Below are positions 492 through 19,396 of a stretch of DNA of 21,104 nucleotides, piece after piece. The notes under the pieces were generated by a model. It searched no databases. It had not been told where the DNA came from and saw only the letters and a program-made list of their open reading frames with translations. Where the stretch lies: the IMG/VR virus record IMGVR_UViG_3300027996_003090, positions 1-21,104 of that record; one strand, given 5' to 3'. Made by a program: the position numbers and the translations under genes. Every line of letters starts with the position of its first letter. Within the stretch, counting starts at the first letter, position 1. This DNA is from a virus.

Positions 492-1430
492 TTATGTTAT
501 GGTCCATGTCATTGTAATGCCCGATGGGATACCTTTAGCCCCACTTGCTGTCCATGTGGCATAAGCACCACCACCTGAAATGCCTGTATATAAATTTAGA
601 TTTGAACTTGATGCATTTATATACCATAAACCTGCTGCAAGTATCGTACCATTATCAGTATATGCTACTATGTCCCCATTTTGTAACGATGTAGTCCTGA
701 TGTCTGTTGGAATATTGTTCAATATGAAATCGACACTATTAGATGTTTCCGTCCAGTTTCCTGGGAGGAATAATGTTACTACTTCTCCAATCCTAGTCCA
801 CCTGCAAGTGATTGAAGGATTGGCATCTACACCAGTAAATGTAGGGCTAAATGTACCTGTCTTATAGTATGTTAAATCACTTTCGCCTAAATTAATACCA
901 TCATCAAGCGTCTTAACGCCTGCAAATGTCTGTGCCTCAGTGTTAACCAGCCCTGCAACCGTGTCACTCGCAGGTGCGATATACTGATCGGCTCCTCGTG
1001 TTTCGACTACCGCTGCTGCGGTGGTTCCAATCGAGGTCCATGTTGGTTCTGCATTTAGGCTGACTGTTCCCGATATGTTAATACTTCCGATTGCTGTTCC
1101 ACTTTCTACAAGTATTTCATCGGCATCGCCTGTTGCCACAGTACTGCCCCATGAAGCAGCTCCTGAATATGTGATAACAGCCTCATTATTTTGGAAGTTT
1201 ATTCCCGCAAACACAAGAGTCATAATTGTACTAGGTGTTTGTGTTGCTCGCAAATTAAATACCATTCGCCATTGGTTATTGCTGTCTGCACTAAAGGTGG
1301 CCGTTGCATAAGATATAGATGTTGCGCCTGTGATATATGAACTAATATCAACTTCCTTAGTAATCTTACTAACACTCTCATAAGGCACTATTGCATTTCC
1401 TGCTTTCAAACCAGCGATCCCGTAAGTCAT
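492..1430 (-). CDS. Second tail fibre / receptor-binding-type protein
   Basis: This 312-residue protein is rich in Ser, Thr, Gly and Asn, with predicted beta structure throughout and no enzyme motif. Residues 1-145 form a beta-rich N-terminal part. Residues 153-182 hold the linker style common in phage fibres, including DTVAGLVNTEAQTFAGVKTL. Residues 187-312 look like a compact C-terminal beta domain beginning YYKTGTFSPTF, a plausible receptor-contacting tip. The start overlaps the stop of the upstream S74 fibre as ATGA and has AAGGAG just upstream, so the two fibres are likely made together by coupled translation. It could be an accessory fibre or a tip protein that attaches to the S74 fibre. 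The fibre role is inferred from composition and position; the ligand is unknown. Confidence 0.7.
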   Translation of the reverse strand: MTYGIAGLKAGNAIVPYESVSKITKEVDISSYITGATSISYATATFSADSNNQWRMVFNLRATQTPSTIMTLVFAGINFQNNEAVITYSGAASWGSTVATGDADEILVESGTAIGSINISGTVSLNAEPTWTSIGTTAAAVVETRGADQYIAPASDTVAGLVNTEAQTFAGVKTLDDGINLGESDLTYYKTGTFSPTFTGVDANPSITCRWTRIGEVVTLFLPGNWTETSNSVDFILNNIPTDIRTTSLQNGDIVAYTDNGTILAAGLWYINASSSNLNLYTGISGGGAYATWTASGAKGIPSGITMTWTIT

Positions 1431-3406
1431 ATTTTTTCTCCTTCAAGTGCCGTTAGGCGTGCTAAGATTGCTTCGATTTGTACGTCTTTTTTTGCTAGTT
1501 CGCTCTCGTGTTTTGTGTTTAGTTCTTGGATTGCTTTCATGGCGATAAATAACAATCCTTTATTATTGATACCCTTGGCCATGAATTCATTTTCAGTACC
1601 TTTGTTGACTAAGAATGTATCCTTGATTACTTCAGGAAAATGCTTCTCTACATCTTGTGCCATTGATCCTATATGGATGTGGTCTAGGTTATCCAAGTAA
1701 GCCCATGTACCTATTGGGATTTGAACAAATCGTTCTAGAACAGATTCAAGAGGTGTTAAATCAGTCTTCATACGTTGGTCGGACAGGTCACTATCATTTG
1801 ATTGATAATTATAAATACCCCCATTACCAGCTACATAAAATCTTGAAGCTGTGGCATCTTCGCATAAGATATAATAATTACCCGTAGATGCACTTGGTGA
1901 GGCGACAGTATAGCTAATATTTAGCCCCCAAGGATCAGAAGCATGGGTGTGTCTTAGTGCATTAGTAAACGATCCACCTGCATTTGTTCCTGTATTCAGT
2001 GCAATTGTACCACCAGCTGCATTATCAATTGTGGCAGCACCATTTATATCAACATTGCCTTGGACGGCCATAACATTAGAACCGCTGAAGATTTCAAATC
2101 TAGCATCATTATTAACGCTGCATTTCAGTATACTTGTTGCATCATTTGAACCTGAACAATCTATTTGTACACCATCATCACCGGTAGCGGTACCAGTGTT
2201 GTCAAACCTTGCTACATAATTCCCTGTATTTGATTTGGAAACTTCGAGGGGATACGCAGGTTCTTTACCTACACCAAGACCGCCATCAATCTCAACATCA
2301 CCAGCAACATCCAAATCATCATTGAAAACCCATGGACCTTCAAGAGTTCTGGCAACAAAAGCCGTAAATGGAGTTACCACCCACCACGGCGATCCTGTGT
2401 CCCACGCAAATGAAACATAGTCAGACGCCTGCCCGATTGTAATCCCAGTTGTATAGTCTTTCCCGTCAAGCCTGAATGCATCTGAACCGTTTTTCAAAAC
2501 ATCAACATAGTAAGGAGTTGATGCATATGCAGCCTGATCTTCAGTGCCTGTTACAGCAACTTCAAGATAGTATCCCGTCGTTCCTGAAGGTGCATTCACA
2601 TCGATTTTTGCAGAGGCACCGCTCATGTCTATGATATATCTGAAGCCATCAGCAAGGTTTGCACCATCGTCTGTATGATCTAGATAAACTGTTGAGATAC
2701 CACCGCCACCGCCCAATGGTAGGAGTGAAGAACCATTGTCAAGGTATGCCTTGTCTTCATCGCTTGCATACAAAAGAGTTGCCTGTTTTCTAGTCAGACC
2801 ACCGAGGTTTGCAATGGTGTTTTTTGGAATTGTGAGCCTGCTTGTATCTGAAGCTGTACCACCTGCGAAGTCTTTTGCAGTTAAGATCTGAGTGCCGTCG
2901 ATAGTAGCAATATCACCTGTTGAAGTCCCACCGACTGAAACACCATCAAGCTGGTTGAGCTCCGTCGCAGTTGACGACAGGGCTACGTCTTCATTTATCT
3001 TTGGAGACGTCAACCGCTTGTTTGTCATGGTCTGAGTGCCGTCGATAGTAGCAATATCGCCTGACGATGAACCGCCGACTGAAACACCATCAAGCTGATT
3101 GAGCTCCGTCGCAGTCGATGCAAGAACGACGTCTTCATTCAGTTTTGGTGAGTTCAACCGCTTGTTTGTCATGGTCTGAGTGCTGTCATCATCGACCATT
3201 GCAGACCATGCACCATTTGAATAATACCGCACCAGTGCAGTTGCAGTATTGTAATAAACATCGCCATTGGCTGCAGCTGATCCCTTTGCACTCACAAATG
3301 CAGCATCACTGGCATATGCTACATAGCTACCTGCAACTGATGTAGTGTTGGTTGTCGGTGTTACAGTTATACCCTCTGCAAGCAGAAGTGTTTTTACGTT
3401 TGTCAT
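1427..3406 (-). CDS. Tail fibre with C-terminal peptidase S74 intramolecular chaperone
   Basis: This 659-residue fibre or tailspike has a beta-rich shaft and a self-cleaving chaperone. Residues 74-169 are two 48-residue repeats containing NKRL.SPK and ATELNQLDGV, a motif frequent in phage fibres. Residues 235-350 and 385-530 look like beta domains. From residue 542 the sequence matches peptidase S74: SDQRMK gives the Ser542/Lys547 pair, followed by a GSMAQDV segment and a C-terminal coiled-coil-like stretch (about 620-659). In this family the domain drives trimer folding and is then cut off at the Ser, which here would remove 118 residues. The start has AAAGGA nearby, and the gene lies 3 bases after the upstream gene. 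The protein probably forms a trimer at the tail tip. The S74 call is strong; the shaft fold is inferred. Confidence 0.88.
   Translation of the reverse strand: MTNVKTLLLAEGITVTPTTNTTSVAGSYVAYASDAAFVSAKGSAAANGDVYYNTATALVRYYSNGAWSAMVDDDSTQTMTNKRLNSPKLNEDVVLASTATELNQLDGVSVGGSSSGDIATIDGTQTMTNKRLTSPKINEDVALSSTATELNQLDGVSVGGTSTGDIATIDGTQILTAKDFAGGTASDTSRLTIPKNTIANLGGLTRKQATLLYASDEDKAYLDNGSSLLPLGGGGGISTVYLDHTDDGANLADGFRYIIDMSGASAKIDVNAPSGTTGYYLEVAVTGTEDQAAYASTPYYVDVLKNGSDAFRLDGKDYTTGITIGQASDYVSFAWDTGSPWWVVTPFTAFVARTLEGPWVFNDDLDVAGDVEIDGGLGVGKEPAYPLEVSKSNTGNYVARFDNTGTATGDDGVQIDCSGSNDATSILKCSVNNDARFEIFSGSNVMAVQGNVDINGAATIDNAAGGTIALNTGTNAGGSFTNALRHTHASDPWGLNISYTVASPSASTGNYYILCEDATASRFYVAGNGGIYNYQSNDSDLSDQRMKTDLTPLESVLERFVQIPIGTWAYLDNLDHIHIGSMAQDVEKHFPEVIKDTFLVNKGTENEFMAKGINNKGLLFIAMKAIQELNTKHESELAKKDVQIEAILARLTALEGEKI
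2900..3187 (-). repeat. Two tandem 144-bp coding repeats in the tail fibre
   Basis: Residues 74-121 and 122-169 of the S74 fibre align without gaps and differ at few positions. The same stretch (gagtgccgtcgatagtagca) appears in the DNA 144 bases apart, near 2888 and 3032. A third, broken unit starts at residue 170 (DGTQILTAKDF). The high DNA identity suggests recent duplication or ongoing recombination, which would change shaft length. Confidence 0.85.
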
Positions 3407-11466: not shown

Positions 11467-11913
11467 TTATTCAAAATATTCAGCAGAAATAGCTGATACA
11501 ATGGTTATTACCTTTCGATCATCTTCAATATACTCTATGCCTTGATCGGTGACATATCTCGCTCGAATCACCTGAACACCATTCAGAACACTTATTTTTT
11601 GCAATTCTTTCCAAACCAGAAAAGCATCTTCATAAAGCGCCTTTTCCTGCGTGGCCCTTTCGATTGGATCAGTTTCATGGGCTGTATATAAATTACTCAG
11701 AGTAAGATTATATGCCCTGTCAATCGTAAGTTGAACACCATCAAGATATCTCTCTGTGTTCTCACCACCTGCGATCCCTAGGGAATATCCCTTTTCAAGC
11801 CTGATTAAATCATTGTCGCCTATCTCATATGCATCAGCAAGCCTGTGATAAGCAGTCAACTTGCTTTCAATGAGCGTTATCAGACCATCATATACCAAAG
11901 ATCCATTTGACAT
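11467..11913 (-). CDS. Putative tail terminator / neck protein
   Basis: This 148-residue protein has an N-terminal helix (DGLITLIESKLT), a central segment with 'YSLGIAGGENTERYLDGVQLTIDRAY', helices around residues 80-110 and closing strands with VQVIRARYVTD and RKVITIVSAISAEYFE. The helix-strand-helix-strand order and size fit tail terminator proteins (lambda gpU or HK97-type), which cap the tail tube and dock it to the head. Its place between the connector protein and the tail tube gene supports this. The start overlaps the upstream stop as TAATG with AGGT just before it. The fold assignment is by pattern and position only. Confidence 0.6.
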   Translation of the reverse strand: MSNGSLVYDGLITLIESKLTAYHRLADAYEIGDNDLIRLEKGYSLGIAGGENTERYLDGVQLTIDRAYNLTLSNLYTAHETDPIERATQEKALYEDAFLVWKELQKISVLNGVQVIRARYVTDQGIEYIEDDRKVITIVSAISAEYFE

Positions 11914-12734
11914 TATCGACCTACTCTCATCATTGCTGGTGTTTTCTCAGACCTATCATAGTTCCCATTTAGGTTCTGGTCTATACCCCAGTCGCCACTA
12001 TTCATTGATTCAGTGTAATACTTCCTTGCATCGGCACGGTCTTCTGCATATGAAATTCCGAGACCTGCGAATATTATTTCAGCCGTTTTATGCACGCATG
12101 GTATTTCATAGCGCTTTGAATCAAGGATTTGATCTTTTGACAAAATCATGTTTCGACTTTTCAAATCGGTGATGATTGCATCACTTGCAGACACCTCCTG
12201 AGTAGTCCAGTCGGCTTTGCCTGCTTTGAACCGTGTCATGATTGATGAATTATTGAACAGCGGGTATTGTGAAAACAAGGCATTGTCATCACAGAATCGA
12301 TTTCCAATATAGTTGATTACAAGTGCAGAATCGCTTGATGCATCGTATCCAAAACGCATCCAATAAACACTATATACCTTGGTATCTGCGAGCTCTGTTA
12401 TATCAGAAGAATCGTCTTCTTGATCCCAGCCCTCGTCCTTGTCAACTGTAAAATTGATATTGCCTGAAACCTCGAGAGTATTTGTGCCTTTAGTATAATC
12501 AATTATATCTGCAACAGACACCCATGCGTTGTTGTACCAAATATCAATTGTCAGTGTCCCAGCCTGATCGTTTGCCGTCTCGATTTCAAAAAACTTGTGA
12601 TTGAAAGGAAAAAACGAGCTCACATAAAGATATGTTTTGCAATCCCATGCTCCAGTCGCAGTGAATGGATTTGACCATGGGATAGTGCGGTCTATGATTG
12701 TGCCTGCATCATCTATAAAATATCTGTCAAACAT
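11913..12734 (-). CDS. Head-tail connector protein with an N-terminal beta-sandwich domain
   Basis: This 273-residue protein has two parts. Residues about 1-148 are beta-rich and aromatic (GTLTIDIWYNNAWVSVADII, VYWMRFGYD) and look like a beta-sandwich virion domain. Residues about 170-245 are helical: ASDAIITDLKSRNMILSKDQ, then IPCVHKTAEIIFAGLG and EDRADARKYYTESMN. That pattern of helices with a conserved-looking A..i...l..lg region matches gp6-like head-tail adaptors that sit under the portal. The C-terminus is DQNLNGNYDRSEK, Asn/Asp rich and possibly a flexible or ion-binding tail. The gene starts the neck module. Most adaptors are only 90-120 residues, so the added N-terminal domain is unusual. 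A fibre or decoration role for the beta domain is inferred. Confidence 0.6.
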   Translation of the reverse strand: MFDRYFIDDAGTIIDRTIPWSNPFTATGAWDCKTYLYVSSFFPFNHKFFEIETANDQAGTLTIDIWYNNAWVSVADIIDYTKGTNTLEVSGNINFTVDKDEGWDQEDDSSDITELADTKVYSVYWMRFGYDASSDSALVINYIGNRFCDDNALFSQYPLFNNSSIMTRFKAGKADWTTQEVSASDAIITDLKSRNMILSKDQILDSKRYEIPCVHKTAEIIFAGLGISYAEDRADARKYYTESMNSGDWGIDQNLNGNYDRSEKTPAMMRVGR

Positions 12735-12746
12735 TTTAACCAGCCT

Positions 12747-14099
12747 TTAATATTTGGTTTGAATTGTTGCAGTCACCGTTGCAACGCCCTCGGTCACTAC
12801 ATGCTTGAGCCTTACAAACTGATAAAATATCCCGCTCTTGTTCAAAAAGCCAGTTGATGCACCTGAAACTGTGAAAGTATCCGATGTATCATGATATTTA
12901 ATATCATCTTGTGATGCCTGCACTGTAATAGTACCAGCAAGAGTGCTTTCAACAGCAAGTGTATGAACACCTGTTCCAGTATCAGTCAGATTTACAGCCG
13001 TGCCACCTTGTGTTGCTGATAATTGAATTGTATTTGCATCAATAATTTTTACAAAATAATCTGTTGCAAGGCTCAAGCCAGCGGGTAGAGTGTCCGTTGT
13101 TGTACCTCTTACCAAGAGCCCTTCCAAAAAACCATGGCTTTCGATAGCAATATAATCTGTTGCTATAAAAACATTTTCATCAACTCCTTCAGTAGTCTCA
13201 GCTGATGTTATGCTTCCTGCACCGCTGTCGTCTGCATTTTTTAATGCAGGATTTGTTGCTGCACCAGTGCTTGCATGTGTCATAATCATAGTACCATCGG
13301 CTGCAGTGTCATCGGTTGCTATCAATGCACTGAATCCTGTCAGACCATCAAAAACAAGTTCTGCTGAAGCCGCGAATTGAACCGCTGTAAGACCTGCCGA
13401 ACCATTGACCTGACTTTTTCTTGCTGAAGGGATAGCTGTCCATATTGCACCTGTAGGCTCTGCTCCAAGTACTGACCCTTGTGTTTCTGTAGTCAAGGTA
13501 AAGCCTGTATCACCATCGACTGCATCGGTTAGGGCTTCAATATCCACATTTGTCACCGTGCAAATATCGTCTGTACTTGAAGCAGTGAACTTTGAATCAG
13601 CATGAATTGCTGTTTCAAGTTTGCCAGCTATAACTGAAGCTGTATCATCTGCAGCTATAGTTGTTATTTCGACTGATCTAGTTGCGCCGTGAGAAGGTTC
13701 CGAGGTGCCGCTGTTATCTACATCAATCCAAAATCCGACGCTTCCTGCCGTATCCTGCAATACAAAATAAGTGCCATCAAGCGAGCCTGAAATATCTGCA
13801 ATAGCAGTTATGTCTGTTACTTCTGCTATGCCTGCCTTTGACAGAGCGCAACCCCAGGCGTCCCCACCTGTATCATACATCACTATATAGTCGCCGTGCG
13901 TTGCTGCAGAAGTAGCTGGAAACGTCAAGGTAGATACCTCTACAACTCCAGTATCAAATGTTTTTGATGTATAAGATCCTGTATCGTCAACCCATGATGC
14001 ATAAAGGCTATATCCGAGATAACCATAAAGGTTGTAAGATTCTGAATAATTTGTACCTCCAGTCGGCACAATACTTATATCTCGTTCTGAAACACCCAT
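12747..14099 (-). CDS. Multi-domain beta-rich virion structural protein
   Basis: This 450-residue protein is dominated by Thr, Ala, Asp, Gly and Ser, with no enzyme motif. Two related segments appear: HGDYIVMYDTGGDAWGCAL at 68-86 and DGTYFVLQDTAGSVGFWIDV at 108-127. The second leads into TTIAADDTASVIAGKLETAI, a module I have seen in many phage structural proteins. Residues 318-382 hold another common virion module (ESHGFLEGLLVRGTTTDTLP, then DYFVKIIDANTIQLS and LTDTGTGVHT). Residues 385-450 form a last beta domain (AGTITVQASQDDIKYHDTSD, YQFVRLKHVVTEGVATVTAT). AAGGAG precedes the ATG. The gene is 32 bases below the 357-residue virion protein and 12 above the connector gene. A capsid or neck fibre is the most likely role; the target is unknown. 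Confidence 0.6.
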   Translation of the reverse strand: MGVSERDISIVPTGGTNYSESYNLYGYLGYSLYASWVDDTGSYTSKTFDTGVVEVSTLTFPATSAATHGDYIVMYDTGGDAWGCALSKAGIAEVTDITAIADISGSLDGTYFVLQDTAGSVGFWIDVDNSGTSEPSHGATRSVEITTIAADDTASVIAGKLETAIHADSKFTASSTDDICTVTNVDIEALTDAVDGDTGFTLTTETQGSVLGAEPTGAIWTAIPSARKSQVNGSAGLTAVQFAASAELVFDGLTGFSALIATDDTAADGTMIMTHASTGAATNPALKNADDSGAGSITSAETTEGVDENVFIATDYIAIESHGFLEGLLVRGTTTDTLPAGLSLATDYFVKIIDANTIQLSATQGGTAVNLTDTGTGVHTLAVESTLAGTITVQASQDDIKYHDTSDTFTVSGASTGFLNKSGIFYQFVRLKHVVTEGVATVTATIQTKY

Positions 14100-14132
14100 T
14101 AGGTAACTCCTTTTTATTTTTAAAACTTAAAT

Positions 14133-15206
14133 TCAGTGTTCATACCACCAGAAATCAACGTCCATGTATCCAGCTTGAACTGCCTTTTTTACCAGTTTGA
14201 ATAAATATATGGTATTTTGATCGCCAACTATTTCATGGTTGAGACCTGGAGCAACGCCTGTTGCATTTTTTCCAGAACCCATTTTTGAAGCCCAAATTTG
14301 AGTGCCATCGGTTGTTACCGTCGGCCCTGCATATGCGACAAGCTCGGCAGTATTGGGACTATCACCTCGATTATTGACAGTAGTTACCTGAGTTCCGTTT
14401 ACACTGACTGTACCATCTCTAAAAATATATGCTTCAAACTCAACATTGGCATATAACGATACTTTTGCATGTATACGGGTATCTGTATCGGGCGTTATAA
14501 ACATGAAATAAACTGTTTCATCAGCACCACCAACAAAATCTACAAAATTCTTATAGAAATAATGATTTCCTTCATGCACTTCATGATGATCTGGATCAAG
14601 GACTACTGGGCCATTGAATTCTGAATCCAACTCTATATTTCTGTAAAGCCCGCCTTTGCCTTTGCCTGTTATTACAGCCTTGACAAGTCTTGAATCGTCC
14701 TCGCCTGAAATATTATCTTCAATCCTATGGCTTGATGCAAGTGCATTGCCTTTTTTTATCACTGCATGAAGTCTAAATTCTGTTTGTGCTATACCACCAT
14801 TTGTATATGTTATTCGCATATATTGCATTGACGGTTGTATGCTGAATGTTTTGCCAGTGCTTGCAGGTATTGTATAAGTGTCCTCAGTATCCCAGAAGAT
14901 GCTTTCAACACCATTTACAGAGTGACCTTGTTCGATAACAAGACCATCTATTGCACTTGCCTGATCGGCATAAACAGTTACAAAAATAATGCTTGCCTGC
15001 AATACGTCTGTTGCCGTGCCTGGGAAAACTTCATCGATTCCCAAAGGCTCATGGCTTGTATTGTTTTCATCAATCACACCATTGATGCTTATATCAACGC
15101 CATCACTTGCGAAAGGGGTTACCTTCAGCTGATTGTTGATCGATTCAATGTTATGAATCTTTCCAGTATGGTCTACATATAGAGTGTTTGGATCAAGACT
15201 AGACAT
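14133..15206 (-). CDS. Two-domain beta-rich virion structural protein
   Basis: This protein has 357 residues. Residues about 55-150 form one beta domain (ASIIFVTVYADQ, YTIPASTGKTFSIQPSMQYM, RITYTNGGIAQTEFRLHAVI). Residues about 175-357 form another (DETVYFMFITPDTDTRIHAK, EFEAYIFRDGTVSVNGT, GPTVTTDGTQ, YMDVDFWWYEH). From memory, both patterns recur in phage virion proteins of several lineages, often next to each other and sometimes as separate genes. The start lies inside the end of the 735-residue gene, with an 8-base overlap and GAGGTGG upstream, so translation is probably coupled and the products may form one assembly. Position between capsid and neck favours a head-associated decoration or fibre. 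No catalytic residues are recognisable. Confidence 0.6.
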   Translation of the reverse strand: MSSLDPNTLYVDHTGKIHNIESINNQLKVTPFASDGVDISINGVIDENNTSHEPLGIDEVFPGTATDVLQASIIFVTVYADQASAIDGLVIEQGHSVNGVESIFWDTEDTYTIPASTGKTFSIQPSMQYMRITYTNGGIAQTEFRLHAVIKKGNALASSHRIEDNISGEDDSRLVKAVITGKGKGGLYRNIELDSEFNGPVVLDPDHHEVHEGNHYFYKNFVDFVGGADETVYFMFITPDTDTRIHAKVSLYANVEFEAYIFRDGTVSVNGTQVTTVNNRGDSPNTAELVAYAGPTVTTDGTQIWASKMGSGKNATGVAPGLNHEIVGDQNTIYLFKLVKKAVQAGYMDVDFWWYEH

Positions 15207-17406
15207 CTACCACCTCAAAAGACAGCAAGCTTGAAAAATCAGCTTCGGATGCATTTGGAAGTGAAAACTTGTACCTCTGTTTTCCTACCTTCATTTCCCA
15301 GAATTGATTTTCAGCCTGGACGTAAATATCAGCTGTAAACCAACCATTAACATCGGTAGTGCCCAATGTTTCCCATTCATATATATGCAATGCAGTGCTG
15401 TTTATAAACCCTTGAAAAGGTCTTATTTGCACTACTTCACTTGCAACCGTACCATCATGGTCATATATATACCCGTCAAAACTGCAAACTGTTAAAACAG
15501 GAATGATAGGAGCAAGGTTGTATGTTATCGTCATCACATCAATAGATGGTGTAGTCAAACCATCATCACTGTGCAGAAATATTTTTGCTGTCGAGGCACA
15601 TTGAGTTGTTATCAGATCACTAATATCACTCACAAGCTCGGCGATGGTATTCGATTCTGCATACGTTCCGTTGCTGTCTTCAGCACTACCACCTGTCACC
15701 CATCGATCCTGTGCTCCACAAAGAGCCGTAAATTTAACTAGATCACTTCCAACTTCGGTAACGGTTGTAGATATGTTTTCCCAGTCAGAAGTTCTGAAGG
15801 TTGAATTTGGAACCAGTGCAGGGTTGGTTGTTGGATATATTTGGGATGTATAGGTTAAAGTCAATAAGTCTGCTGACATCTGGACAGTACCATCATCAAA
15901 AACAATATCCACATTTATATTGTCAGTTGCTGGCAGAGAGATGATATTGGATAATATTTCAGCCTCAGAATTTGATTGTGCATAGGTACCATCACTAGAC
16001 ACCCAACCGGAATTATAATATAAATCATTAATTACATAGTGCGGTATGTTTGCTTCGGTTGTTGAAAAGCTGGTGAACGTCTGTATTTCTCCAGCTCCTG
16101 AATAGGAGAATTGTGGTAGCTCTATTTTAGATGTTGGATAAACTGCACTGCTGTAAGTGAGTATTAGATTGTCGGATTCCATCAACGAACTGCCATCCCC
16201 GAAAACCAAGTCCACGTTCACTGTGTCCGTCTCTGTAAGGGCAGGTATATTTGTATTAACGTCGGCTTCAGAATTAGCTTGTGCATAGGTACCGTCACTA
16301 GATACCCACGCTGCACCGTTCCAATACTCATCATTTACTATATATCGAGGGCTGTTACCATCGGTTGTGGAAAAAGCGGTATAGTCTGAGATACTTCCTA
16401 GACCTGCAAAACTAAACTGAGGTAGCTCAATCTTAGACTCTATATACTTATATTCCGATAAGATGTACCCCGGAGTGTAGTTAGTAGTATGTTGAACGGT
16501 ATCAAACACTACTACGTCTTCAAAATAGGCATCAGAATTCCAAGTACCCCCTGCATTTGCCCCAACTCGGAAAAGACCTATATCCGAGTTTCTAGTTCCA
16601 GTAGAGATTAAATCGGATAGGGATAGTACTCCATCGATAAAAAGTCTAGTCTCACCACTAGTTAGATCGGTATTTACTTCGAACTCGTAGGTCACTCCTG
16701 AGTTAGGTAACCAAGTATCAGACACATCCAAAATAAGACCACCAGCCTGATCTGTTATGTATAAATGTAGTATTCCTCCACTACCATGATACATCCCTAT
16801 AGAGTTATCTGTCAGATTATGTCCTTCACAAATTACAAACATACCTCGTATTGTTAGTGGGCCTCCAGTATAATTAGGAGTATATTTAAACCTAAGTGTC
16901 AGTGTTTGCTGGCTAGATGCGTTACCTGCTGCGTCATAACTGACGTATTTGGAGGTACCTCCAGTGACATCCAACCGATTACTAACTACACTGGCTCCTC
17001 CGGTGGCGGTACCTGTTAGCACCCCCTCACCATAATTTAAATTGATGTCTGTGGTATACGTGCCAACCGACGTTGAATCAGTAGGTGCTTTGTCTTTTTG
17101 TTGTACTTTCCCTGCTACAAATTCAGCTTTTGTGTTATCGTAAGTAAACCCCGTATCATTCGCAAAATCCTCAGTGAAAGTCTGTCCTGTGGTAGTTATA
17201 AGTTTTTGTCGTACCACCCCAGCAGCAAATTCTGCTTTAGTATTATCATATGTAAAACCTGTATCATCGGCAAAGTCTTCGGTGAAGGTCTGATTAGGAT
17301 TATCTTGAAGCTTGAGTTGAGCTTTGCCGTCTACAAATTCAATGAGGTCTGTATCATATGAATAATTGCTGGCAGTCGTGAATTGATATGTAGTTATTGT
17401 TGTCAT
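15199..17406 (-). CDS. Mosaic fibre/adhesin-like virion protein with LamG-like domain and internal repeats
   Basis: This 735-residue protein is built from modules. Residues 8-110 hold two 36-residue repeats (QTFTEDFADDTGFTYDNTKA and a near copy) plus a degenerate first unit. Residues about 115-312 look like a LamG/concanavalin A-like lectin domain (LTLRFKYTP, YEFEVNTDLTSGETRLFIDG, YFEDVVVFD). Residues 324-425 and 426-526 are two 102-residue repeats opening with SKIELPQFS and containing WVSSDGTYAQ.NSEA; a divergent third copy covers 527-631. Residues 634-735 form a C-terminal beta domain (CSFDGYIYDHDG, DVNGWFTADIYV) like carboxypeptidase-regulatory or Ig-like folds. The start overlaps the previous stop as ATGA. 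Glycan binding at the virion surface is inferred from the LamG-like domain. The LamG region differs in base use from the rest of the window. Confidence 0.65.
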   Translation of the reverse strand: MTTITTYQFTTASNYSYDTDLIEFVDGKAQLKLQDNPNQTFTEDFADDTGFTYDNTKAEFAAGVVRQKLITTTGQTFTEDFANDTGFTYDNTKAEFVAGKVQQKDKAPTDSTSVGTYTTDINLNYGEGVLTGTATGGASVVSNRLDVTGGTSKYVSYDAAGNASSQQTLTLRFKYTPNYTGGPLTIRGMFVICEGHNLTDNSIGMYHGSGGILHLYITDQAGGLILDVSDTWLPNSGVTYEFEVNTDLTSGETRLFIDGVLSLSDLISTGTRNSDIGLFRVGANAGGTWNSDAYFEDVVVFDTVQHTTNYTPGYILSEYKYIESKIELPQFSFAGLGSISDYTAFSTTDGNSPRYIVNDEYWNGAAWVSSDGTYAQANSEADVNTNIPALTETDTVNVDLVFGDGSSLMESDNLILTYSSAVYPTSKIELPQFSYSGAGEIQTFTSFSTTEANIPHYVINDLYYNSGWVSSDGTYAQSNSEAEILSNIISLPATDNINVDIVFDDGTVQMSADLLTLTYTSQIYPTTNPALVPNSTFRTSDWENISTTVTEVGSDLVKFTALCGAQDRWVTGGSAEDSNGTYAESNTIAELVSDISDLITTQCASTAKIFLHSDDGLTTPSIDVMTITYNLAPIIPVLTVCSFDGYIYDHDGTVASEVVQIRPFQGFINSTALHIYEWETLGTTDVNGWFTADIYVQAENQFWEMKVGKQRYKFSLPNASEADFSSLLSFEVVDV
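15829..16437 (-). repeat. Two 102-residue coding repeats in the mosaic protein
   Basis: The unit starts at SKIELPQFS and ends at the next TSKIEL boundary. The two copies share DNA stretches such as ttgtgcataggtacc near 15976 and 16279, so the duplication is fairly recent. A third, much more diverged copy follows at about 15514-15828 and keeps NGTYAESNTIAE and VMTITYN. Confidence 0.8.
17077..17292 (-). repeat. Two 36-residue N-terminal repeats in the mosaic protein
   Basis: QTFTEDFA.DTGFTYDNTKA is repeated with a 108-base period. The protein copies are nearly identical, but many third codon positions differ, so the repeat looks old and held by selection. The sequence YDTDLIEFVDGKAQLK just upstream looks like a further degenerate unit. 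Confidence 0.8.
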
Positions 17407-17774
17407 GAATCGAAAGCCCCCAAAGCATAGATATAAGCCGTTTCAGAAGATACGATAGCCCATAGGTTATTGCTGTTGCCTCTTTTCACTCTCAGCAAAA
17501 AAGGATCTCCAGGCGACAATGGATAGGCATTGGAACCGCCCGCTGTAATCGTATTATCTTCGCCTATCCATATTATACCGCCCGTGTCAAGGTGTTTGAT
17601 GCTTACGGATTCAGCGTCATCAGGCAAATCAATCAATGTTGCCGTTGTAGTTATCAGTGTCCTGACAGCCCCAACAGAGTTGTATCTTGGATCAATTATT
17701 TTTCTGAATACCTGACTGCCTTTTTCTTCAAAGCAGTTTCGATTCAGATCACCAATCGGCGTCAATGACGGCAT
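17403..17774 (-). CDS. Small beta-rich virion protein, first gene after the capsid hairpins
   Basis: This protein has 123 residues. After a short N-terminus (residues 1-33), residues 35-120 look like one beta-sandwich: VRTLITTTATLIDLPDDAES, IIWIGEDNTITAGGSNAYPL, SPGDPFLLRV and LWAIVSSETAYIYALG. This 'IWIG..NT.....G.PL.PG....' pattern recurs in small phage structural proteins of unknown function. It is the first gene downstream of the double hairpin, with GAGGTGA before its ATG, and overlaps the 735-residue gene by four bases, so it may be the base or anchor for that fibre-like protein. The anchor idea is context only. Confidence 0.6.
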   Translation of the reverse strand: MPSLTPIGDLNRNCFEEKGSQVFRKIIDPRYNSVGAVRTLITTTATLIDLPDDAESVSIKHLDTGGIIWIGEDNTITAGGSNAYPLSPGDPFLLRVKRGNSNNLWAIVSSETAYIYALGAFDS

Positions 17775-17800
17775 AGCATCACCTCAAACATCAAACAAAT

Positions 17801-17822
17801 GGAAGGTACCGAAGCACCTTCC
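17801..17822 (-). terminator. Nine-base-pair UUCG hairpin downstream of the capsid genes
   Basis: On the transcribed strand GGAAGGTGC pairs with GTACCTTCC around a TTCG loop, with one G-U pair. The following ATTTGTTTGATG is only moderately U-rich, so termination may be partial. Its place after the capsid genes suggests a partial terminator or a block to 3' decay of the abundant capsid mRNA. Confidence 0.6.
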
Positions 17823-17848
17823 AAACAGGGAATAAAAACCGGATCGTT

Positions 17849-17862
17849 ACTCCCGAAGGAGT
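17849..17862 (-). terminator. Five-base-pair UUCG hairpin touching the stop of the decoration gene
   Basis: ACTCC and GGAGT pair around TTCG, starting at the last base of the TAA stop. A T5 run follows, but ten bases after the stem, so it is not a canonical intrinsic terminator by itself. With the second hairpin 27 bases on, it forms a tandem structure. Confidence 0.45.
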
Positions 17863-18272
17863 TAGAACTTTTTAATTTCCCATAAAAATACCATTTTGCC
17901 AGTCAACAGTGTTTCAGCTTCAATTGAAAACTGAAGCTTCTTTGTAGCTGATACTTTAACAAATCCCTCTGTACCGCCAGTTGTGGCGTTCTCAGGGATG
18001 ATAAAAGAACCTATTGTAAAAGTAGCAACGGGCTCTGAATTCAAAAAAGCGTCGGCAGTTTCATCACTCTCTACAGTCAGAAGCGCTGATCCTCCAGATG
18101 TAGGTGCGGTTGTAACCTTGACACCAACAAGCTTTACAAGCAAGTCATCGGCTGTAGCTGCAGTCATGACGTAATCGGCAATAGCTCCAGTATCTTCATC
18201 AAAATCGTAAGTTGTTTCATAAAATTCAGATGTATTTGAAAATGGTGCTCCAAAACTTCCTGTCTTTAACAT
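17862..18272 (-). CDS. Capsid decoration-like small beta protein
   Basis: This protein has 136 residues. The pattern TYDFDEDTGAIADYVMT, then LLVKLVGVKVTTAPTSGGSA, then a late LTGKMVFLWEI strand resembles a widespread family of small beta-rich virion proteins encoded just after major capsid genes. In those the core reads 'DF..DGGa.g...l.....p....i....v.v...PTSGGSA.......LTAGK'. A capsid decoration or stabilising role is inferred from family position and context. The start is one base after the upstream stop (TGATATG) with AAGGAAG upstream, and the gene ends at the tandem hairpins, making it the last gene of the capsid set. Confidence 0.6.
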   Translation of the reverse strand: MLKTGSFGAPFSNTSEFYETTYDFDEDTGAIADYVMTAATADDLLVKLVGVKVTTAPTSGGSALLTVESDETADAFLNSEPVATFTIGSFIIPENATTGGTEGFVKVSATKKLQFSIEAETLLTGKMVFLWEIKKF

Positions 18273-18273
18273 A

Positions 18274-18504
18274 TCATACTTCCTTTGTTTGTTTTTCTAG
18301 TTCAATTTTATTATTAGATAAATTCTTTTTCTTGACTTGACCAACGGGCCTGTCAAAAAGAACCCATACACCAAACATTTGACCATGAATGAGCCAACCG
18401 CCTGGCATAATCGTATGAACATTGTCGATCGCCTTCAGTTGATCTTTCAACTTTTCAGGTGATCGGGCCTCAAAATAATGCAGATTTTCATAATTGTTTT
18501 TCAT
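18274..18504 (-). CDS. Small protein of unknown function downstream of the major capsid gene
   Basis: This protein has 76 residues. The middle holds an alpha-beta pattern (YFEARSPEKLKDQLKAIDNV, then GGWLIHGQMFGVWVLFDRP) and the C-terminus is highly charged (KKKNLSNNKIELEKQTKEV). I do not recognise it. The start has AAGGGA six bases upstream. It lies 25 bases after the capsid gene and is almost fused to the decoration-like gene, so it should be co-expressed with both. It could be a minor capsid or assembly factor; nothing decides between these. Confidence 0.55.
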   Translation of the reverse strand: MKNNYENLHYFEARSPEKLKDQLKAIDNVHTIMPGGWLIHGQMFGVWVLFDRPVGQVKKKNLSNNKIELEKQTKEV

Positions 18505-18529: not shown

Positions 18530-19396
18530 TTATGCTGCACTAGTGACCTTGTAACATTTTTTTGCACCATCAATGCTCAATTTGGCCCCAAAAAGAAGGT
18601 CAACTGACAAGGTATATCCAAACTGCTTGTTACCATGGAGATCTGAAAGCTTGAATTGTGGCTCCGTTTGAGCGGCATAAAGCAAAGCTTCAGGCAAAAA
18701 TGCTATGGATGATCCAGTCAGAGGAGCGCTGTCATCTTCATAGTTGATGAATCCGTAACGTTGCTGGCCCACTTGACCGCTGATCCTTGCACCATCTTCA
18801 AACCCAAACGTATCTGCGATTAAATTATTGTCAGAAAGAAAATCGCTGTAATAGCCAGGTCCCATTAAATTGTACCAAGGGCTTTCCTTTGACCAATGAG
18901 CTTCAGCACAGGCTTGTCGCATGTTTGCCATGATGGTGTTGCTCATTGCTGCAGTTGAGTTGATTGTATGATCAGGGTTTGAGGTGCTTGGTACCATCAA
19001 GGAATACAAGTATGTATTTATTTGACGGCCAACATCGTGCATCATTGCTTTTCTTACGTCAGGATTGCTTGAAGGATCGATGATGCTTTGGATTGAAACA
19101 AGATCATCAAATTCAATAGCAGATACTGCCCGTCTGTCAGCTTTCAAATCCACTTTTGAAGTTGTGATTTTGTTTGTCTCATATGTATCGGCGTCAACGC
19201 CCACTTCTCTGAGATCACTTTGGAGCTCATTTATTTGGGACACACGGACGGTATCACCCTTGAATCTTATTTCACCCTCATACGCTTTTGATACAAGCGA
19301 AGGAAGCAAAAAGGATTCCCTTAGTTCTTGCATGAAAAGAGTTGACCATTTTGTTTGGATTTGGTCTGCAACATCTGTCAAACTTGTTTTCGCCAT
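18530..19396 (-). CDS. Major capsid protein (HK97-fold, P22 coat-like)
   Basis: This protein has 288 residues. It shows features of the HK97-fold coat protein: an N-terminal helix (VADQIQTKWSTLFMQELRES) leading to 'GDTVRVSQI' strands, the ADRRAVSAIEFDDLVSIQS segment (E-loop/spine region), a long spine helix (KAMMHDVGRQINTYLYSLM), and a C-terminal P-domain ending GYTLSVDLLFGAKLSIDGAKKCYKV. Length fits the smaller members of the family. A separate scaffold is encoded immediately upstream and no prohead protease is visible, so cleavage-independent maturation as in P22 is possible; a protease could lie beyond the right edge. GGAG precedes the ATG by nine bases. Confidence 0.85.
   Translation of the reverse strand: MAKTSLTDVADQIQTKWSTLFMQELRESFLLPSLVSKAYEGEIRFKGDTVRVSQINELQSDLREVGVDADTYETNKITTSKVDLKADRRAVSAIEFDDLVSIQSIIDPSSNPDVRKAMMHDVGRQINTYLYSLMVPSTSNPDHTINSTAAMSNTIMANMRQACAEAHWSKESPWYNLMGPGYYSDFLSDNNLIADTFGFEDGARISGQVGQQRYGFINYEDDSAPLTGSSIAFLPEALLYAAQTEPQFKLSDLHGNKQFGYTLSVDLLFGAKLSIDGAKKCYKVTSAA

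Follow-up and report, generated by a model that had tools for sequence, protein, structure and literature searches.

The island of four genes at positions 12747–17774 of the window is probably a modular appendage cassette docked to either the capsid or the neck of the virion, the capsid being the more likely site; this reading is based on sequence comparison. The window is the whole stretch of DNA analyzed here, the 21,104-base linear IMG/VR record IMGVR_UViG_3300027996_003090, and the genes treated here are all on its minus strand. The source virus belongs to an uncultured, siphovirus-like (long-tailed) phage lineage. Its relatives contain a conserved head–tail chassis with one hypervariable slot, exactly at the junction between the cement gene and the connector gene. 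A scan with an alignment of the major capsid protein (MCP) yielded 49 related loci, and L053, L054, and L058 were added from other scans, giving about 50 relatives. Their genes were labelled with profiles built from the proteins of the window. L054, the sole match of one scan of genome contigs, is binned as Candidatus Dependentiae (RXKB01000029.1), which is either a hint at the host or a misbinned phage contig. In tblastn searches against named phages, the MCP of the window found no match and the MCP of a relative found only about 25% identity; thus, cultured phages offer no guide to the virion structure.

In the order of transcription, two small proteins are followed by a scaffold-like protein (209 aa), the MCP (288 aa; 18530–19396), a 76-aa protein (18274–18504), and a 136-aa protein (17862–18272). 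Then come the island (123, 735, 357, and 450 aa), the 273-aa connector (11913–12734), and proteins of 148 and 507 aa, the latter being the probable major tail protein (MTP). The last part encodes proteins of 122 and 100 aa, the tape measure (846 aa), proteins of 264, 699, and 158 aa, the tail fibre (659 aa; 1427–3406), and a 312-aa protein. The MCP belongs with phrog_283/267 (phrog_283, E 9e-13 in the profile search) and is seen in 49 relatives, while the small conserved 76-aa protein between MCP and cement is seen in 35 loci. The earlier note placed four genes between capsid and connector, and the ORFs are indeed found there: 123 aa at 17403–17774, 735 aa at 15199–17406, 357 aa at 14133–15206, and 450 aa at 12747–14099. 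The first two overlap by 4 nt, the second and third overlap by 8 nt, and the last two are separated by 33 nt. These junctions indicate that the four genes form one co-translated, translationally coupled set. The GC content of the island is 0.39–0.44 and the flanks are alike, and a recent foreign origin was rejected on this basis.

Among 28 non-redundant loci, the interval between the cement and connector genes ranges from −15 to 6706 bp, with a standard deviation of 1993 bp. Most other intervals of the chassis show standard deviations of 27–84 bp; the interval between the 148-aa gene and the MTP gene has one outlier. This difference indicates that the variable slot is not due to chance. The gene order around the slot is constant across the relatives, and the slot is empty in six of the 28 loci (L002, L014, L015, L020, L034, and L036; the connector of L034 is cut by the contig end). 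The order seen in the window is thus not universal among related phages, a point on which the earlier note had made its proposal depend. Where the slot is filled, its content differs. The slots of L001 and L042 start with 123- and 735-type genes. L006 and L008 have a 357-type gene alone. In L053, 735- and 357-type genes are followed directly by the connector, without any 450-type gene, and other loci contain quite different sets. The island is therefore not present or absent as a unit, as had been thought possible: the 357-type gene can stand by itself or have a different C-terminal domain.

The left border of the slot is the 136-aa gene, conserved just downstream of the MCP gene in 46 loci. 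The profile of its family (33 aligned sequences) matches the cementing protein of BPP-1 (PDB 3j4u) with E 7.6e-4 over about 75 positions. Based on this homology and on the adjacency to the MCP gene, the 136-aa protein is predicted to be a cement/decoration-like protein; the likeness to the BPP-1 protein is one of sequence profiles, and capsid binding is a prediction here. The cement gene is followed by twin hairpins (17775–17861; minus strand) with a folding z of −3.1. The second (17823–17800) has a 10-bp stem and a T-rich tail and resembles an intrinsic terminator. The hairpins, which had been regarded as the upstream boundary of the island itself, are real, but nearly all relatives have hairpins at the same position, and the terminator stands behind the cement gene even where the slot is empty. 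The hairpins end the transcription unit of the capsid genes and, throughout the lineage, delimit the slot on its left; they are a feature of the chassis rather than of the island.

The right border is the 273-aa connector. Its family (30 aligned sequences) combines a beta domain at the N-terminus with a C-terminal part that ends in a DxNxDG-like motif. The beta domain matches orf18 in the structure 9efk_M (E 3.5e-6), and neck-1 proteins with a beta-sandwich form a recognized class (PMC10491603). The earlier note saw in this extra domain a possible anchor specific to the island. The domain is present in every relative, with or without slot genes, and so does not represent an adaptation to the island.

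The four proteins had been described as beta-rich and repeat- or lectin-like. This description fits the repeats of the 735-aa protein, the fibre-type domain of the 450-aa protein, and the modelled jelly roll of the 123-aa protein; it is putative for the 357-aa protein, whose AlphaFold model has a pLDDT of only 32, the 123-aa protein being the only one modelled with usable confidence. The 123-aa protein, 74% identical to its counterpart in L001, consists of an N-terminal docking motif (residues ~1–28) and a jelly-roll-like beta domain, with a pLDDT of 74.5 overall and 80–90 over most of the core. The motif is disordered in the monomer model. The best PDB matches of the modelled fold are generic and cupin-like (TM about 0.4), and a family assignment by fold was dropped. 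We propose that this protein is the base, or anchor, of the appendage. The 735-aa protein contains two repeat sets, with 26/30 and 59/102 identical residues. N-terminal 36-aa repeats are followed by a LamG-like region (residues 150–303; weak match to Laminin_G_3, E 0.007, below the cut-off), beta repeats of about 100 aa (321–640), and a C-terminal domain. Its homologues are found in L001, L042, and L053, and it is proposed to be the shaft. The 357-aa protein is proposed to be a distal, adhesive part. It shares its first 44 aa with L053 and its middle domain with L006–L008, and its C-terminus matches phrog_5335 (E 1e-13, profile search). Residues 34–156 in the middle domain show 39% identity to a stretch of LR756511, a 595-kb jumbo phage record, which at another locus encodes a phrog_1645-type protein resembling that of L053. 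The 450-aa protein, encoded by the last slot gene, contains at residues ~306–388 a domain common to tail-fibre and baseplate PHROGs (E 1e-7). Scans for close relatives of the 735-, 357-, and 450-aa proteins with exact 8-mer patterns confirmed nothing, because these proteins diverge fast and the patterns are strict.

Across the relatives, the slot genes are mostly fibre- or adhesin-like, but genes of other kinds also occur there. The slot of L024 encodes the N-terminal domain of the BPP-1 major tropism determinant (Mtd_N, E 1e-16), those of L011 and L017 match GP4 fibre I gp80 (E 5e-25), and YadA stalk and F5/8-C domains are also found in the slots of relatives. PHROG labels, which are silent on the place of a protein in the virion, include phrog_697 (head), "structural protein", in L043 and L018, and phrog_1645, "virion structural protein", in L053 (E 8e-78) and L008 (E 3e-64). 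The latter occurs in many cyanophages and HMO-2011. In L032 (2046–5840) and L035 (8572–13073), the slot contains sugar genes instead of fibres: glycosyltransferase 2, PhyH (phytanoyl) dioxygenase, methyltransferase, polysaccharide deacetylase, and epimerase. This set possibly modifies glycans of the virion or of the host surface. In a near-identical group (L028–L030 and L052), the slot encodes a 92-aa protein of membrane/coiled-coil type, and a 734-aa ORF, still recognized by the 148-aa profile, stands in place of the 148-aa neck gene. Some fibre-like slot or tail-end proteins begin with Sec signal-peptide-like sequences such as MRTIFFILLLSSVALGQ, which is odd for virion assembly in the cytoplasm. 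Examples are L019:8097–9200, L041:6748–7833, L054:11995–14199, L065:2622–4817, and L066:7857–8843; with a simple heuristic, such starts were flagged in 15 of 855 proteins.

The first slot genes, different as they are, usually open with a common motif of about 25 residues, xINxREFxKFxExxxTAVR or a variant (I-x-x-L-E-R-x-x-F), which sits on unrelated C-terminal domains. In leave-one-out profiles, where each member and its near copies were omitted, 14 first slot genes are recovered at E 2e-4 to 4e-15; the best protein other than a first one, among about 950 proteins, has E > 0.17. A blind scan of 2.9 M IMG/VR contigs with the back-translated motif matched five stretches. Four are first slot genes: L055 (the contig of L011), L031, L057 (the contig of L012), and the new member L058, whose sole slot gene carries the motif. 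The fifth is a chance match in the middle of a protein. At most a vague resemblance, without leave-one-out support, is seen in the first genes of L006, L013, L019, L022, and L024, and the motif is absent from those of L028, L032, L035, and L041.

The motif of the window (residues 5–28 of the 123-aa protein, TPIGDLNRNCFEEKGSQVFRKIID; 17691–17762, minus strand) is divergent, with E 0.04–0.16 against the family profiles. With the window and L001 left out of the profile, the 123-aa protein has E 0.043 and ranks at the top alongside other first slot genes. Its significance comes from the pairwise comparison with L007 only: residues 1–19 are identical at 12 of 19 positions, a result reached in none of 20,000 shuffles, and the score is 59 against 32 for the next unrelated protein. 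The bearer of the motif in L007 is a 357-type protein, which is the first in its slot, while the window has the motif on the 123-aa gene instead. This indicates that the tag follows the position and not the domain behind it.

The joints between consecutive slot proteins are also kept. The first 44 residues are shared by the 357-type proteins of the window and L053, which beyond this segment carry phrog_5335 in the window and phrog_1645 in L053 (E 8e-78); the phrog_1645 profile has no match in the 357-aa protein of the window. The 735-type proteins of the two loci are best conserved toward the C-terminus, with 58–67% over the last ~100 columns. Such joints would fit a chain in which the C-terminal end of one protein meets the N-terminal end of the next.

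The 659-aa tail-tip fibre at the other end of the window matches phrog_28766 (E 4e-18). Tail-end fibre genes are retained in both slot-full and slot-empty relatives, and they have their own N-terminal motif, M(A/S)GxVKKLxFAEGxxVxxP, with leave-one-out E 6e-5 to 4e-12. The profile of this motif recovers nothing but tail-end fibre genes; none of the slot proteins scores significantly. It is seen at 1427–3406 of the window and in L061–L066 and L069, and in L065 and L066 it is on a separate protein of about 100 aa. The window fibre has E 0.038 and ranks next after L069, on which the profile was not trained. The earlier note preferred head fibres or capsid-borne adhesins to tail fibres. The separate motif and the persistence of the tail fibres bear out the distinction from tail-tip fibres; the choice of the head over the neck is a matter of interpretation.

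In the most likely reading, the cement–connector junction is an open slot behind the capsid terminator, and the island is probably the exchangeable appendage cassette of the window phage. The first slot gene would encode a base protein that binds through its N-terminal motif to a conserved component of the virion, the capsid shell (MCP or cement) being the most likely partner and the neck a less likely one. The 735-, 357-, and 450-aa proteins could follow one another as a repeat shaft and adhesive pieces, with the N-terminal segment of each holding it in place, so that distal domains could be swapped while the serial joints are kept. If it is part of the virion, the appendage would probably serve for initial, reversible binding to host glycans, ahead of the action of the separate tail-tip fibre.

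The same modular appendage might instead sit on the connector beta domain, as whiskers, a collar, or neck fibres, and we consider this rather unlikely. The slot adjoins the connector gene, and the beta domain is conserved in all relatives. There are also precedents, namely the multi-gene neck fibres of A-1(L) with an N-terminal neck-binding domain (PMC10966104) and the collar of Milano, which binds the neck-1 beta-sandwich (PMC10491603). Yet the domain is equally present in slot-empty relatives, and the anchor does not vary with it. Among distant pairs from 12 loci, the similarity of anchors correlates with that of the MCP (r 0.75) and the cement protein (r 0.81), against r 0.10 for the connector and r −0.17 for its beta domain, although shared descent and the position of the anchor gene beside the cement gene confound the correlation with capsid genes, which was also computed on 21 loci. 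The remainder of the same first-gene proteins shows r 0.33 and 0.44 with MCP and cement, and a correlation with the anchor is also seen for the 148-aa gene, which lies downstream of the connector (r 0.51). Considering adjacency, descent, and this last correlation, the co-variation only tilts the choice toward the capsid. A broader form of capsid docking is conceivable, though we give it somewhat less than an even chance: one N-terminal peptide code, read by the cement or capsid and fused to whichever gene is first, would plug varied fibre sets onto the head across the lineage, and a second code would serve the tail tip.

The near-universal terminator could also simply make a permissive insertion point, a hotspot for morons, where the four genes of the window would be unrelated accessory genes. 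The sugar-enzyme genes of L032 and L035 and the membrane/coiled-coil protein of L028 are what such a hotspot might collect; unrelated cargo would not be expected to show a positional docking motif, conserved joints, and an excess of fibre-type domains, and this explanation appears improbable. Still less credible is that the island genes moved beside the head genes and encode side fibres belonging to the tip or the shaft of the tail. Some slot domains do match PHROGs called tail fibre or baseplate, but the tail-end fibre genes persist whether the slot is full or empty, and their N-terminal motif is absent from slot proteins.

The proposed appendage can be compared with known ones. The head spikes of RcGTA consist of a jelly-roll base, Rcc01079, which attaches to the capsid through its N-terminus, and a fibre, Rcc01080, and they bind the host capsule (PMC7296036). 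The window resembles them in its proposed two layers, a small base and a distinct fibre protein that would be fixed through an N-terminal peptide of its own; both a conserved N-terminal arm (the motif) and an adjacent fibre gene (the 735-aa gene, overlapping by 4 nt) are found. Membership in the RcGTA spike-base family was rejected by sequence, with no NCBIfam match at E up to 10 and no relevant PDB sequence match in the profile search. Unlike in RcGTA, the cassette lies between cement and neck genes, has more genes and swappable domains, and its capsid attachment is putative. In the cyanophage A-1(L), the neck fibres gp82-gp81-gp80 are arranged serially, with an N-terminal docking domain, repeat beads, and a distal carbohydrate-binding module (PMC10966104). 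By analogy, several genes of the window may build one fibre in series, although A-1(L) is a myophage and its fibre genes lie far from the rest of its structural genes. The capsid fibres of phage 7-7-1 (PMC12796354) and the turrets of the archaeal virus HFTV1 (PMC12494034) are capsid-borne appendages thought to make the first host contact in tailed viruses that also have host-binding structures at the tail tip. In HFTV1, unlike in the window, the gene numbers of the turrets (gp30-31) are well separated from that of the MCP (gp19).

Head and neck fibres are thus known from scattered phages, and what is new is a positional docking motif in a probable modular head/neck fibre cassette. The evolutionary swapping of such fibres is little described, and about 50 genomes show here a fixed slot, a positional motif, and domain exchange at kept joints. 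These features give testable criteria for recognizing phage genes that encode head appendages, and a short peptide for a trial of capsid binding. They also offer a marker for finding these fibres in metagenomes, in which host guesses rely on tail fibres alone.
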